Shown one piece after another: positions 15,040-31,703 of a DNA stretch of 33,860 nt. The stretch covers positions 1-33,860 of the forward strand of contig JAPKDW010000016.1 of the NCBI GenBank assembly GCA_028822375.1, written 5' to 3'. The number at the start of each line of letters is the position of its first letter. The stretch's first letter is position 1. The position numbers were made by a program, and so were the translations under genes. The notes beneath the pieces are model-generated. The model did no database searches. It saw only the letters and a list, made by a program, of their open reading frames with translations, and was not told where the DNA came from. The DNA is from Opitutaceae bacterium (GTDB lineage: Bacteria > Verrucomicrobiota > Verrucomicrobiia > Opitutales > Opitutaceae).

Positions 15040-15259
15040 GGTAGCGGCCGATCTCCGAGCGGCCATTATTGGTAAAGTAGCTGATCCCGCTCAAAGCATA
15101 AGCGTCAGCTTAACTGAAATTCGACTAAAACCACGCCGCGCTGCGACGTAGCTACGCGAGGAACCCGCGTGGAACCGGCAATGAAACCAATCGTTTGGGC
15201 TTAAGTTGACGCGTAAGTGCTCAGCGGGATCAGTGATCGCCCGGAGGTCGGCCGCTACC
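15040..15259. repeat. Imperfect inverted repeat with GGTAGCGGCCGA boxes and a nested element
   Basis: Arms GGTAGCGGCCGATCTCCG (15040-15057) and its inverse (15242-15259) match at 17 of 18 positions. Further inward, CTGATCCCGCT (15081) pairs with AGCGGGATCAG (15221-15231). The arms enclose the MITE-like element at about 15097-15218. The same box occurs once at 3225-3242. Flanking sequence out to the maf start on one side, and from 15260 to 15420 on the other, shows no gene. Confidence 0.8.
15097..15218. mobile_element. MITE-like element, family GCGTCA(A/G)CTTAA (copy 1)
   Basis: The terminal inverted repeats are GCGTCAGCTTAACT (15102-15115) and, inverted, GCGTCAACTTAAGC (15199-15212), matching at 11 of 14. 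The element is about 122 bp, non-coding and GC-rich in the middle. It sits in the loop of a GATCCCGCT/AGCGGGATC hairpin. The same family occurs at 31440-31586 with perfect ends. Target duplication here is degenerate (GCTCA on both sides), suggesting an older insertion. Confidence 0.7.
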
Positions 15260-18449: not shown

Positions 18450-18628
18450 GAGACTGTTTAATAAGTCGAATGAACACTACAATTGAAACGCAATACGGTA
18501 AATTCTGATAGTTCGGTTTTGTAGGTCGTCTCGCTGAGGCGACACGCTTGCAGGGCTGGCGGGTCAGCGACCCGCCCTACAATTAATCTGCTCGAAGAAA
18601 CACTGACTTATTTACCAATCTCTAAGAG
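18444..18628. mobile_element. MITE-like palindromic element, unit 1
   Basis: The left boundary CTCTAAGAGA at 18444-18453 runs into AGAGACTGTTTAATAAGTCGAATG (18449-18472). The right end CACTGACTTATT ... CTCTAAGAG is at 18601-18628. The interior has a REP-type double hairpin at 18519-18583: GTCGTCTC/GAGGCGAC, then GGCGGGTC-AGC-GACCCGCC, bracketed by GTAGG/CCTAC. No coding potential. It shares the boundary CTCTAAGAG with unit 2. Confidence 0.75.
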
Positions 18629-18771
18629 CCTGTTTAATAAGTCAGTGTAGGAGCGGGTTTATCCCGCGATTTTTCATTTTTATTGCATAGACGCGGATTA
18701 TCGCGGGGTAAACCCGCTCCTACAATTAGGCAGCGGAGAAACATTCGACTTATTAAACAGTCTCTAAGAGA
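18620..18771. mobile_element. MITE-like palindromic element, unit 2
   Basis: The element runs from CTCTAAGAG (18620-18628) to CTCTAAGAGA (18762-18771). The right terminal repeat at 18742-18765 is a perfect 24-bp inverse of the left end of unit 1 (18449-18472). The interior is one long hairpin: 18647-18670 pairs with 18700-18723 over 24 positions with one mismatch, its arm beginning GTAGGAGCGGGTTTATCCCG. The loop contains TTTTTCATTTTTAT. The flank TCCTACAATTAGGCAGCGG is shared with 31.65 kb. Confidence 0.8.
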
Positions 18772-19932: not shown

Positions 19933-22692
19933 ATGCCATCAAAAACAACTGCGAAGAAAGCAAAGAAGGTCGCAAATAAACGCGCCCCCAAGGCAATTAA
20001 ATACGTTTACTCGTTCGGTAAGAAAACCGACGGTGACTCGAAAATGAAAAACTTGCTTGGCGGCAAGGGAGCTAATCTCGCGGAGATGGCCAGAATTGGT
20101 CTTCCCGTTCCTGGTGGCTTCACAATCACGACAGACGTCTGCGTAGAATACTACGACAACGGACGCGTTTACCCAGCTGCCCTCAAGGGTCAGGTCGCTG
20201 ACGCGATCAAGATCTGCGAAAAGGAAAGCGGCAAAAAATTCGGCAACCAAAAGAACCCACTTCTTTTCTCGGTTCGCTCAGGCGCTCGCGAGTCGATGCC
20301 AGGCATGATGGATACCATCCTCAACCTCGGCCTTAACGACAAGACCGTCGAAGCTCTCAAGGCTCAATCCGGCAACGGCCGTTTCGCTTACGATTGCTAC
20401 CGTCGCTTCGTTCAAATGTACGGAGACGTCGTAATGGGCGTTCAAGCTCGCACTGAAAACGAGTCTTGCCCATTCGAACTCGCGCTTCACGACGTGAAGG
20501 TAGAAGTTGGCGTCACAGTCGACTCCGACCTCACTGAAGAAAACAACAGGGAAGTCATCAAACGCTTCCAAGCTCTCATCAAAGATCGTACCGGCGGAGC
20601 ATTCCCTCAGGACGTGAACGAGCAGCTCGACGGCGCAGTTAGCGCGGTTTTCAATTCATGGCAGAACGAGCGCGCGACACTCTACCGCCAGAAGTACGGC
20701 ATCCCTGCAGCATGGGGTACAGCGGTAAATGTTCAGTTGATGGTTTTCGGTAACCTAGGCGACACTTCCGGAACGGGCGTTGCATTCACTCGCGACCCTG
20801 CAAACGGCGAAAACGTATTCTACGGCGAATACCTCATCAACGCTCAGGGCGAAGATGTGGTAGCGGGCGTTCGTACTCCTTTCCCGATCGCGAATCTCGC
20901 AAACGATATGCCTAAGTCTTTTAAGGAGCTTTGCGTTGTTCGCAAGAAGCTCGAGAAGCACTTCGGCGATGTACAGGATTTCGAATTCACCATCGAAGAC
21001 GGAACGCTTTACATGCTTCAAACTCGCAACGGTAAGCGTACCGGCCTCGCGGCTGTTCGTATCGCTGTTGAAATGACGAAGCAGAAATTGATGACGCAGA
21101 AGGTTGCGGTTACGAAGATTCCTGCGGATCAGATCTCCAGCCTCCTCGTTCCTATTTTCGACACGAAGGCAATTAAGAGGGCAACGCTCATGGCAGTCGG
21201 TCTCCCTGCGGGTCCTGGCGCTGCATCCGGCAAGATCGTATTCAACGCTGTTGATGCGGAAGCCGAAGTAGCTAAGGGCAACTCAGTTGTCCTTTGCCGT
21301 GAAGAAACGTCTCCTGAAGATCTTCGTGGAATGATCGCTTCTGACGGTATCCTCACATCGCGTGGTGGTGTTTCGTCTCACGCAGCTCTCGTTGCTCGCC
21401 AAATGGGCAAAGTTTGTATCTGTGGCGCATCAGACATCCATATCGACTACGCTGCCGCTACGATCAGTGCCGGCAAAACTGTCCTGAAGGAAGGCGATTT
21501 CATCTCTATCGACGGAACGACTGGCGAAATCTTCGCAGGTAGTGTTGCGACAGCTCCTTCGGAAGTCTCTCAAGTCCTCGCGGGCAAGATGAAGCCTGAA
21601 AAGAGCTACACCTACCAAATGTTCGATCAGGTCATGAAGTGGTCTGACAAGTTCCGCACAATGGGTGTCCGCACAAACGCTGACTCTCCTGAGCAATCCA
21701 GGGCAGCTGTTGCTATGGGCGCGGAAGGTATCGGTCTTTGCCGCACGGAGCACATGTTCTTCGAAGGCGATCGTATCACCTACATGCGTGAAATGATCCT
21801 CGCTCCGACGGAAGCCGCTCGTAAAGCAGCTCTCAAGAAGCTTCTCCCATTCCAACGCAAGGACTTCAATGGTCTCTTCAAAGCAATGGAAGGCCGTCCG
21901 GTTACGATCCGCTTCCTCGATCCCCCATTGCATGAGTTTTTGCCTCACGACGACGCATCCCGTCGCAGTTTGGCAGAACACTTGAATGTGGCTCCTGAAG
22001 TTATCAGCGAACGCGTTCACGCTCTCCACGAAGAGAACCCAATGTTGGGTCACCGTGGTTGCCGTCTCGGAATTTCGTATCCAGAAATCACCGAAATGCA
22101 GGCTCGCGCAGTCTTCGAAGCCGCCGCTCAAGTGCTCAAACTTAAGTCTAAGATCAAGGTTAAGCCAGAGATCATGATTCCTCTCGTAGGATTCAAGGAC
22201 GAGCTCGACAACCAAGTGGCAATCGTTCACCGCGTTGCAGAAGAAGTTCAATCAGCCAAGGGCGTTAAGATTGACTACCTCGTAGGTACGATGCTCGAAG
22301 TGCCTCGCGCTTGCGTGACTTCTGCCGAAATCGCAAAGACCGCTCAGTTCTTCAGCTTCGGCACCAACGACTTGACCCAAACGACAATGGGAATGAGCCG
22401 TGATGACGCCGGCAGCTTCCTCGGCAAGTACAAGGATCTCGACATCCTCCCGCAAAATCCATTCGCAACGCTCGATCAAGAAGGCGTTGGCGCATTGCTT
22501 AAGATGGGCGTAAACGGTGGTCGCTCGACTAACCCGAACATCAAGCTTGGCATCTGTGGCGAACACGGTGGTGACCCGGCTTCTATTAAGTTCTGCCACG
22601 ATGCTGGCCTTTCTTACGTGAGCTGCTCGCCAAACCGCGTTCCCGTCGCTCGCCTGTCCGCTGCTCAAGCAGCGATCGCAGCCGGCGCGTAA
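19933..22692 (+). CDS. ppdK: Pyruvate, phosphate dikinase
   Basis: A 919-residue enzyme interconverting pyruvate + ATP + Pi with PEP + AMP + PPi. The N-terminal nucleotide-grasp domain contains [22 protein letters not shown] and [21 protein letters not shown]. The swivelling phosphohistidine domain has catalytic His483 in [12 protein letters not shown]. The C-terminal PEP/pyruvate barrel has [26 protein letters not shown] and the acid-base Cys875 in [10 protein letters not shown]. Residues 1-22 are an unusual Lys/Ala-rich extension before KYVYSFG, where most homologues begin. Codon choice differs from neighbours (Lys mostly AAG, Arg CGC/CGT, Pro CCT/CCA), as expected for a highly expressed gene. 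A strong promoter-like sequence and terminator flank it as a single unit. Confidence 0.97.
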
Positions 22693-22725
22693 ACAATGCG
22701 TATCCGAAAAAGCCTTTAGCTAACC

Positions 22726-22760
22726 AGCCCTGCTCCCTTCATGGGAGCAGGGCTTTTTTT
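22726..22760 (+). terminator. Rho-independent terminator of ppdK
   Basis: AGCCCTGCTCCC and GGGAGCAGGGCT form a perfect 12-bp stem with loop TTCAT, followed by seven T residues. It lies 33 bp after the stop codon. Confidence 0.96.
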
Positions 22761-22835
22761 GCCAAGCTTGTTTCCAGGTAGCATCGAAAACCATATCCAA
22801 CGCAATAATCGTCAACCCAAATAACAACCCTCGGC

Positions 22836-23159
22836 TTGTCGGCGCTCCAAACGTCAATTGATCGCCAAGAAACGAGACAAACGATAACGGTCGTATTCTC
22901 ACGGTCGCCGATCGAAATCACACTCGAATCTAGCCCTGATATGCTCAAGTGGAAACCTGTCGCAGGATTGGAACCAATCGATACTGAAGGCAATCGGTAC
23001 ACGTACCCGCTCCCCAATACGGGTGCGATTATTTCTGTCACCTCATATTCCACAACGGTAACTTGGTATGGTTGCTCGTCCCTACCAGGTGACAGAAATA
23101 ATAGCACCCTCCCCAACACGCAAAACTGCTTCTTTCGCATCGTAGGAATATTCCACTAG
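22836..23159 (+). pseudogene. Fragment of secreted-protein C-terminus, interrupted in frame by a palindromic element
   Basis: An open frame of about 107 codons beginning at a TTG, with no convincing start; the frame is open only from 22809. It contains IEITLESSPDMLKWKPVAG and, 40 residues later, CFFRIVG. This resembles the short C-terminal motif (ESS-x-D-L/M-x-x-W ... FFR) that ends many large Verrucomicrobiota surface proteins. The intervening 33 codons are a palindromic element bounded by a 12-bp direct repeat (separate entry). Removing it would join TYPLPNT directly to QNCFFRI. With no start, signal peptide or upstream domain, it is most likely the remnant 3' end of a larger gene. The opposite-strand frame overlaps the ppdK terminator and is less likely. 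Confidence 0.5.
23010..23120. repeat. In-frame palindromic element with flanking direct repeat
   Basis: The inverted repeat arms 23021-23043 (GGGTGCGATTATTTCTGTCACCT in sense, split here as GGGTGCGATTATT-TCTGTCACCT) and 23087-23109 match at 22 of 23 positions around a 43-bp spacer. The pair is enclosed by a direct repeat, CTCCCCAATACG (23010-23021) and CTCCCCAACACG (23109-23120), 11 of 12 identical with a period of 99 bp, exactly 33 codons. This is the structure of a small palindromic or MITE-like insertion of about 87 bp with a 12-bp target duplication. Confidence 0.85.
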
Positions 23160-23238
23160 AGAGCAATTGTGACTACTCTCCACCGATTCTTGAAATCACT
23201 TTCTATTTGCCATTCTGGCACACGGAGCTTCGCTCGGC

Positions 23239-23333
23239 GCTTAGGCTGTAGGCGTTTAGGAATTTTGATTTCGAAGAGTCTCAAAAATATCCCTAAATCC
23301 CTTAACACCCACAGCCTAACAATCTTCCCAAAA
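23239..23333 (+). repeat. Leader repeat ending at the hflX start codon
   Basis: The inverted repeat arms TTAGGCTGTAGGCGTTTAGG (23241-23260) and the inverse at 23300-23319 match at 17 of 20 positions, separated by 39 bp. The second arm is followed by CAATCTTCCCAAAA and the ATG. The whole stretch resembles, by eye, the equal-length leader of hemL at 17077-17171. Confidence 0.55.
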
Positions 23334-24614
23334 ATGTTCGACCTCGAAGAAAACCGAAAGAAAGTTCAAAACGCCCTCCTCGTTGGCATTCAACAGCCGA
23401 GGATGACGCGCCAGGAATCCGAATACCTTCTAGAGGAACTCACCGAGCTCACGCGCAATCTCGACATTCCCATCGCAGAGCGGATGATCGTGAACCTGAG
23501 AAAGCCAACGCCTGCCTTCTTGGTCGGCAAAGGCAAACTCGAGGAAATCATAGATCTCGTCCACGAGAAAAACATCGACGTTATTATCTTCGATGAAGAG
23601 CTCTCGCCCGCCCAACAACGCAACTGGGAGCGTGAATCGAAAATCTGCGTCATCGACCGACAAGAGATCATTATCGATATCTTTTCCGAACGAGCTCATA
23701 CCAAAGAAGCCTCGCTTCAAGTTTCCTTGGCGCGGATGGAATACTCCCTGCCCCGCCTTACCCGAGCATGGACCCATCTAAGCCGCCAACGCGGTGGAGG
23801 AACCGGAGCGCGTGGCCAAGGCGAAACACAGCTCGAGGCCGATCGTCGAATGATCAACGACCGCATTTCCAATGTAAAAAAGGAACTCAAAGAGGTCATT
23901 AAACACCGGCTTGTCCAACGAGCCAAGCGTCTCCGAAAACCCGTTCCAACTGTATCCATTGTAGGATATACAAACGCCGGAAAGTCATCGCTTCTCAACG
24001 CGCTGACCCATTCAGACGCGCTTGCGGCCGACAAGCTTTTCGCGACACTCGACCCTACCACTCGTCGACTCGATCTTGACAAAAGCCAACACGTTTTACT
24101 CACCGACACCGTAGGGTTCGTTCGCCGCCTCCCCCACAGACTGGTTGACGCATTCAAAGCCACTCTAGAAGAAGCGGTCGTCGCCGATCTTTTGATACAT
24201 TTGATCGACGTTTCCAATCCGGAATTCGAAACTCACTTCGAGACCACAAAAAAAGTCCTCGAAGAAATCGGAGCCAACGAAAACCCAACCCTAATCGTTT
24301 TCAACAAAGTCGATCTCCTGGAAGATACCGAGATAATCGAGCGCCTAAGCCTGCTCCACGAAGACGCGCTCTTCATTAGCGCAGAAAGCGGCGATGGACT
24401 CCAGGCTCTCAAAGATATTATCTCGGATCGGCTCAATGCCCAACTCCGTTCTACCAAACTGGTAATTCCCCACGATCGCTACGACATCATCTCAAAACTC
24501 CACACAAGCGGCGGAATTCGTCATCAAACAACGGAAGACGACGGAGTCCACATCGAAGGCCTATTCTCCGAAAGCCTCAAAGGAATCCTAACACCATTCA
24601 TCATAGAGGTTTAG
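23334..24614 (+). CDS. hflX: Ribosome-associated GTPase HflX
   Basis: A 426-residue GTPase that splits or rescues stalled ribosomes and associates with the 50S subunit. The start is set at ATG 23334 (MFDLEENRKKVQNALLVGIQ); the longer in-frame reading would translate the palindromic leader. The N-terminal HflX domain contains TPAFLVGKGKLEEI and IIFDEELSPAQQRNWE. The linker has the diagnostic SRQRGGGTGARGQGETQLE. The G domain has G1 GYTNAGKSSLLNAL (about residues 210-223), the G3 DTVGFVRRLPHRL and G4 FNKVDLL. The C-terminal region is intact. A small-domain variant or paralogue is unlikely given full-length conservation. Confidence 0.95.
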   Translation: MFDLEENRKKVQNALLVGIQQPRMTRQESEYLLEELTELTRNLDIPIAERMIVNLRKPTPAFLVGKGKLEEIIDLVHEKNIDVIIFDEELSPAQQRNWERESKICVIDRQEIIIDIFSERAHTKEASLQVSLARMEYSLPRLTRAWTHLSRQRGGGTGARGQGETQLEADRRMINDRISNVKKELKEVIKHRLVQRAKRLRKPVPTVSIVGYTNAGKSSLLNALTHSDALAADKLFATLDPTTRRLDLDKSQHVLLTDTVGFVRRLPHRLVDAFKATLEEAVVADLLIHLIDVSNPEFETHFETTKKVLEEIGANENPTLIVFNKVDLLEDTEIIERLSLLHEDALFISAESGDGLQALKDIISDRLNAQLRSTKLVIPHDRYDIISKLHTSGGIRHQTTEDDGVHIEGLFSESLKGILTPFIIEV

Positions 24615-31396: not shown

Positions 31397-31703
31397 GAGA
31401 CTGTTTAATAAATCAGTGTAGGAGCGGTCCCGCTAAGCGCATTGGCGTCAACTTAACTCTATTTGAAGGAATTATTGCAGATCCCACGCCGAAGTCTCGG
31501 CGTAGCTACCCCGACACGTCGGGGTGGTTTTGCTTCGCCATCTGCGCTCCACTCCGTCAGACGATTTCAGTTAAGTTGACGCGTATCCGCTAAGCGTGGA
31601 CCGCGATTTTTCATTTTTATGGTCTCGACACGAATTATCGCGGGGTAAACCCCCTCCTACAATTAGGCAGCGGAGAAATCCCCGACTCACTAAACAGCCC
31701 CTT
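31397..31703. mobile_element. MITE-like palindromic element, degenerate third copy with nested insertion
   Basis: The left end GAGACTGTTTAATAAATCAGTG (read as GAGACTGTTTAAT-AAATCAGTG, 31397-31418) and the right end GACTCACTAAACAGCCCCTTA resemble the 18.4-18.8 kb units. GTAGGAGCGG at 31418, CCGCGATTTTTCATTTTTAT and ATCGCGGGGTAAACC near 31640 are the same internal hairpin. The hairpin loop is interrupted by the second element at 31440-31586. The right end contains the stop codon of the PQQ dehydrogenase gene. Confidence 0.75.
31430..31596. mobile_element. MITE-like element GCGTCAACTTAACT with 10-bp target duplication (copy 2)
   Basis: A perfect 14-bp terminal inverted repeat, GCGTCAACTTAACT at 31445-31458 and inverted at 31569-31582, lies between two identical 10-bp direct repeats CCGCTAAGCG (31430-31439 and 31587-31596). 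The element itself is 147 bp (31440-31586) and non-coding, with an inner hairpin CCCCGACACGTCGGGG. Removing it with one repeat restores a REP-type hairpin GGTCCCGCTAAGCGTGGACC. The same family is at about 15097-15218. Confidence 0.9.

Follow-up and report, generated by a model that had tools for sequence, protein, structure and literature searches.

A palindromic insertion in an Opitutaceae reading frame as a probable copy of a dispersed MITE family

Could a palindrome that sits inside a reading frame, and leaves that frame open, belong to a class of elements that is favoured in genes, in the manner of the Rickettsia palindromic elements (RPEs)? RPEs encode a conserved peptide in frame, and nearly half of the first-reported ones lie in genes (PMC10969869). 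The question is raised by an 89-bp palindromic element in a 33,860-nucleotide stretch of DNA from an Opitutaceae bacterium (the window, taken at its full length), which is contig C375 of the bacterium's own genome (G000; 4.56 Mb in 457 contigs). The copies of the element point to another answer. In all likelihood, it is a non-autonomous copy of a dispersed MITE family, lying in a probable gene remnant whose frame has stayed open by chance. The locus is laid out as follows:

19933-22692, plus strand: ppdK, pyruvate phosphate dikinase, the upstream neighbour
22726-22754, plus strand: terminator-like hairpin 3′ of ppdK, followed by a T run
22836-23159, plus strand: host ORF of 107 codons with a TTG start, C-terminal-domain-like, split by the element
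22875-22976, plus strand: section of the host ORF to which positions 2-35 (of 67) of profile A1 align, E 1.3e-4
23011-23020, plus strand: left copy of the target duplication, TCCCCAATAC
23021-23109, plus strand: MITE copy of 89 bp, from an inverted-repeat search and family matches elsewhere
23021-23043, plus strand: left terminal inverted repeat with a T-type core (ATTTCT)
23065-23086, plus strand: shortened remainder of a GTAG-type inner palindrome (GGTATGGTTGCTCGTCCCTACC), as judged from its sequence
23087-23109, minus strand: right terminal inverted repeat, also with a T-type core
23110-23119, plus strand: right copy of the target duplication, TCCCCAACAC
23334-24614, plus strand: hflX, GTPase, the downstream neighbour, its ATG start set by comparison with relatives

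The palindrome and its dispersed copies

The initial annotation described a near-perfect 23-bp inverted repeat around a 43-bp spacer, a period of 99 bp and frames open on both strands. All of this is present in the window: the arms are complementary at 22 of 23 positions (96%), and both the plus-strand ORF (22836-23159) and a minus-strand ORF (22739-23140) run across the element. The 12-bp duplication that it also described holds in part. The flanking words CTCCCCAATACG (23010-23021) and CTCCCCAACACG (23109-23120) are identical at 11 of 12 positions with a period of 99, but these 12 bp count one base of each arm, and the repeat directly next to GGGTGC...GCACCC spans 10 bp (23011-23020 and 23110-23119, identical at 9 of 10 positions). 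The period is thus made up of the 89-bp element and the 10-bp duplication.

The search for further copies that had been proposed found the element repeated in its own genome and in two relatives (G002 and G006). A 111-bp query gave 11 DNA matches at 10 places of its own genome (E up to 0.001), the window among them, and element DNA was matched only in G000, G002 and G006 (38 relatives searched, E up to 0.01). The ends of the family are about 23 bp long and have the pattern GGGTGCGATTA-n5-GTCACCT. When the end pattern was searched for as GGTGCGATTANNNNNGTCACCT, with up to 2 mismatches and the reversed pattern as the control, 25 end sites were found in G000 compared with 0 for the reversed pattern, 9 compared with 0 in G006 and 3 compared with 2 in G002; the other eight genomes of the genus have 0–4 sites each. 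The window has 2 matches compared with a mean of 0.07 in 100 shuffles, for a pattern that was itself derived from the window copy and the other copies. Eight end sites in G001, G003, G005, G008 and G010 (L121-L124, L128, L129, L133 and L137) had no facing partner at up to 5 mismatches; at the homologous L122 and L137, there is a partner end at 6 mismatches, 120 bp off, in coding-like sequence. Further afield, the exact end pattern (with a WWWSN middle) had 0 matches in genome_contigs, a collection of 84,980 species in which the own and near genomes are perhaps left out, and its N5 form had 0 matches in viral contigs, where the same genomes may likewise be left out. Across the 11 genomes of the genus, the assemblies of which are fragmented, the end sites included no pair with IS-like spacing.

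Sixteen complete copies were delimited, eight as end pairs in the own genome, six as further pairs and two by eye (G006 C421 and C24). Cores printed for 15 of them (the 38-bp C24 copy was left out) were read by eye, and in 13 of the 15 copies a T-rich end (mostly ATTTCT) is paired with an A-rich one (mostly AAAAGT); the assignment is less clear for C117, C544 and C421 of G006. The window copy and C445 are T-type at both ends, and it is because both of its ends are of this type that the window palindrome is nearly perfect. Unlike ends suit the two termini of an insertion sequence, left and right, better than they suit a stem kept for RNA structure.

Bacterial MITEs are short, gene-less elements with terminal inverted repeats of 15–30 bp (PMC3733652). 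The terminal inverted repeats here, which are conserved across copies, are 23 nt long and lie within that range, and 15 of the 16 complete copies measure 85–258 bp and one 38 bp, compared with 70–300 bp for MITEs. The family belongs to this known kind. As in NEMIS, RUP, ERIC, Nezha and other bacterial MITEs, the form is short and gene-less with terminal inverted repeats, there are target duplications, and the sites are mostly intergenic; on the other hand, the end sequence is the family's own, and its interior varies between species. None of the papers seen describes this family, the repeat sequence itself not being searchable as text, and a literature search for repetitive extragenic palindromes in Opitut* found none. 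A MITE family is described here from a little-studied phylum, and the tempting RPE reading is corrected.

Target duplications and interior palindromes

We compared 9-bp words beside both ends of each complete copy at offsets of 0–3, with flanks paired across different copies as the control. At least 8 of 9 positions matched in 6 of the 16 copies, compared with 0 of 240 mismatched flank pairs, 3 of which reached 7 matches. The six copies, at 8 or 9 matches, are those of the window, C94, G002 C186, G002 C225, G006 C33 and G006 C88, the last with just 8 left-flank bases up to the contig start. Ten copies fell below the mark; two of these have 8-bp repeats that were seen by eye (G006 C544, exact, and C24, with one mismatch), and the remaining 8 of the 16 have no duplication. 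These results indicate that the 8–10 bp target duplications are real. A clean empty site was not found; at the place of the C94 copy, the G002 spacer is without the element, and its sequence has diverged too far for an alignment.

We propose that a DDE-type transposase acting in trans would bind the 23-bp ends, and that insertion at a staggered cut would leave the 8–10 bp duplications that are observed. In the window, the target would have been what was left of the 3′ part of a decayed gene in the ppdK–hflX spacer. The 99 bp gained (89 + 10) are divisible by three and contain no stop in the host frame, which we attribute to chance. Inside the element lies a shortened GTAG-type (REP-like) palindrome, the long form of which also occurs elsewhere in the genome without these ends.

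What do the ends enclose? Of the 10 complete copies above 38 bp in G000 and G002, 8 have a GGTAGGG...-like palindrome inside; the exceptions are C445, with another GTAG palindrome, and G002 C225, with something else. The C210 copy, used as a query, gave at least 35 matches, several of them partial, at no fewer than 30 distinct places of the own genome, and these figures are lower bounds, with 40 of 53 candidates scored. At seven of these places, an end site (up to 3 mismatches) lies no more than 200 bp away. The other 23 lack one; C11, which is among them, is close to an end with 5 mismatches. Eleven of the 23 lone palindromes start at query position 19 or 20, which is the border between end and palindrome. 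In G006, a GACGAAGAC-type hairpin lies inside four complete copies and a different one inside one. The interiors thus differ between the G000/G002 copies and the G006 copies, and what the copies have in common is their ends, not their contents.

This could come about by insertion of palindromes into existing elements or by an exchange of contents between elements. A tentative extension, which we consider possible but rather doubtful, is a cargo-swapping MITE system in which unrelated palindromes in different species of the genus are moved by a single pair of 23-bp ends, the left and the right one being of distinct types; the cargoes would be GTAG palindromes in G000 and G002 and GACGAAGAC-type hairpins in G006. 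If that were true, REP-like repeats would travel inside MITEs and owe their spread to a foreign transposase. The same ends with species-varying interiors suggest a possible route by which palindromic repeats spread without their own transposase, and this combination of constant ends and changing palindromic contents is the more unusual part of the family.

In named genomes, the HflX proteins closest to that of the window come from Opitutales/Opitutaceae metagenome-assembled genomes and from Pelagicoccus, which makes an Opitutales host probable. Opitutus terrae belongs to the same order. It has GTAG REPs and REP dimers, many of which are reported inside genes (PMC3733652). The inner palindrome of our family is similar (GGTAGGG..., shortened in the window copy), but here it is enclosed by 23-bp ends with an 8–10 bp duplication, and these outer ends are of another kind. 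Could the element, then, be a REP pair (REPIN) that depends on a RAYT tyrosine transposase for its movement and has TIRYT-type ends in its outer arms? The inner palindrome is GTAG-tagged and has its 30 or more matched places; however, the copies have target duplications, which, to our knowledge, are not expected from tyrosine (HUH) transposition. Tyrosine transposase genes with long flanking TIRs, and families of TIR repeats, are described by Di Nocera et al. (PMC3733652), yet the outer ends here carry neither the GTAG tag nor the GGGGWSAS motif that they give for some TIRYT ends. We therefore consider a REPIN of this kind improbable and retain the MITE reading.

Location of the copies and the open frame

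Members of an RPE-like class would be palindromes with a preference for in-frame sites in protein genes, where translation would turn them into a harmless loop. Some of the window agrees with this: the frame is open on both strands, and codon use in the host frame is coding-like (0.65 before the element, compared with an off-frame 95% point of 0.61 and an in-frame range of 0.62–0.83 in three window genes). Furthermore, palindromic repeats inside genes had already been reported for Opitutus terrae (PMC3733652).

The other copies argue against it. We read the ORFs around 14 copies viewed with their neighbours (a set that excludes G006 C421 and G002 C225) and found 12 of them between genes, the other two being C252 and G002 C186. 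Contrary to the proposed preference for in-frame genic sites, 13 of the 14 are intergenic or at a gene edge, and one truncates a DUF429 gene. At G002 C186 (L115:1412-1420), a fumarylacetoacetate hydrolase family gene takes its stop codon from the element end. The C252 copy, which has an unclear right end and stands outside the 16 complete copies, lies at the break point of the DUF429 gene, which has 151 codons, about the last 12 of them encoded by the element. The corresponding frames have 251–268 codons in G002, G003, G005 and G010, and the 3′ half of the gene was absent from the rest of the C252 locus by blastn. The broken gene (L015:1486-1938, minus strand) is near tRNA-Lys and tRNA-Thr genes.

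Nor does the reading frame appear to be kept. The initial annotation had proposed to count copies in genes and in frame; the copies are not repeatedly in frame, and the lengths of the 16 complete ones occupy all three classes modulo 3. Only 8 of 90 frames are stop-free in the 15 copies that exceed 38 bp; the window copy contributes two of them, and if it is set aside the count is 6 of 84. In each of the five other own-genome matches, the frame used in the window is interrupted by stops, and these stops, together with the differing interiors, speak against a conserved peptide encoded by the element. The likeness to RPEs is that a palindromic insertion leaves the frame of an ORF open; in contrast to RPEs, the copies examined show neither a conserved peptide nor a gene preference. 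RPE-like coding selection is largely refuted by the lengths, the stops and the locations of the copies, and we regard it as very improbable. The open frame in the window is most likely due to chance and not a trait of the family.

A hairpin RNA element (a terminator, mRNA end or attenuator) that is kept for its structure and is not mobile is equally improbable: 23010-23121 has a folding energy of −43 kcal/mol, compared with a mean of −21.7 kcal/mol in 200 shuffles, none of which was as good (z −7.7), and some copies lie directly 3′ of genes, but the arms are unlike, with mid-arm mismatches in 13 of 15 copies, where stem selection should keep pairing, the 8–10 bp duplications indicate insertion, and the interior differs between the G000 and G006 copies. 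The unlike arms and the target duplications make an element of RNA structure only unlikely. Known RNA families had four matches in 22600-23400, all under their gathering scores and none on the element.

The interrupted reading frame

What did the MITE copy enter? The host ORF, with its TTG start, stands alone directly 3′ of the ppdK terminator. An uninterrupted orthologue, which the initial annotation had proposed to look for, was not found; the ORF is similar to a domain at the C terminus of larger proteins. The part of the ORF before the insert matched nothing below E 0.03 in 149 further genomes of the family, an even sample of a larger group. Pfam gave a single weak match to the ORF (E 0.1, below the cut-off), and NCBIfam gave none up to E 10. 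When 23 weak matches were read out, 6 of them ended in a common C-terminal pattern, for example, the 717-codon frame of G146. The pattern of this domain is SSxDLxxWxPV...FxR; a regular expression for the domain gave 0 matches in the loci searched with it, and in the window the insert made a match impossible.

Profile A1, built from the six tails with the window excluded, finds the first half of the window ORF, with an E-value that is partly circular because the six members were picked among weak matches to that first half; the second half played no part in choosing them. Elsewhere, many full-length matches to this profile are found among the matches listed. At E up to 1, at least 31 of the 38 genomes searched (the own genome included) have a match.

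The spacing from W to FxR is 24–44 residues in the six tails; the window has 59 residues there, or 26 once the insert is taken out. Six further tails have spacings of 13–33 but do not test the spacing, because their search pattern allowed at most 45. The YPLPNT-QNCFFRI junction that excision was claimed to restore is plausible: with an eleven-tail profile, the joined ORF scores 29.1 bits, compared with 26.7 for the intact ORF and 27.0 for the first part alone, and 3 of 1000 shuffled tails reach 29.1. The gain is small, however, and when 33-residue deletions were slid along the ORF, at least 8 of 75 beat the true excision, the best at 30.2. With a first, poorer profile, 9 of 500 shuffled tails equalled the joined ORF. 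The excision result agrees modestly with an in-frame insertion junction.

The domain closes its reading frame in all 12 tails read, and 10 of these frames have at least 235 codons. The two short frames have 129 codons, near a contig end (L176), and 73 codons (L218), and because 2 of the 12 tails lie in short frames, the host ORF could also be a short working gene. We compared the region between ppdK and hflX in relatives: 43 hflX loci, the window's own excluded, include 21 with ppdK on the same strand, which represent 15 distinct places. None of the 15 has a match to the host ORF between the two genes at E up to 1e-3. The spacer measures about 64–187 bp in 13 of the 15 (148 bp in G002), compared with 641 bp in the window; the longer spacers are 1828 bp (L159) and, in G006, 2356 bp (L162), with a 763-codon frame on the opposite strand. 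A blastn search of the window for a remnant of this extra G006 gene gave just a 34-bp match right after ppdK. Since the domain that resembles the host ORF occurs in larger proteins and the ORF is absent from all 15 loci, it is probably the remnant 3′ end of a decayed gene and not a working small gene, as far as sequence comparison can tell.

An imperfect 25-nt hairpin lies just upstream of hflX (23241-23319), and the same place in other species has GTAG-type palindromes (L155 and L158) and another palindrome (L156). Elsewhere in the window, a second inverted-repeat family, with ends like AGTTAAGTTGACGC, has copies at 15081-15233 and 31431-31596 that enclose different palindromes, and a related stretch is also present in L030. 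A third inverted repeat (TCTCTAAGAGCCTGTTTAATAAGTC), at 18619-18771, encloses a pair of GTAG-type palindromes (18646-18724), to which there are dozens of matches in the own genome and relatives among the matches listed.
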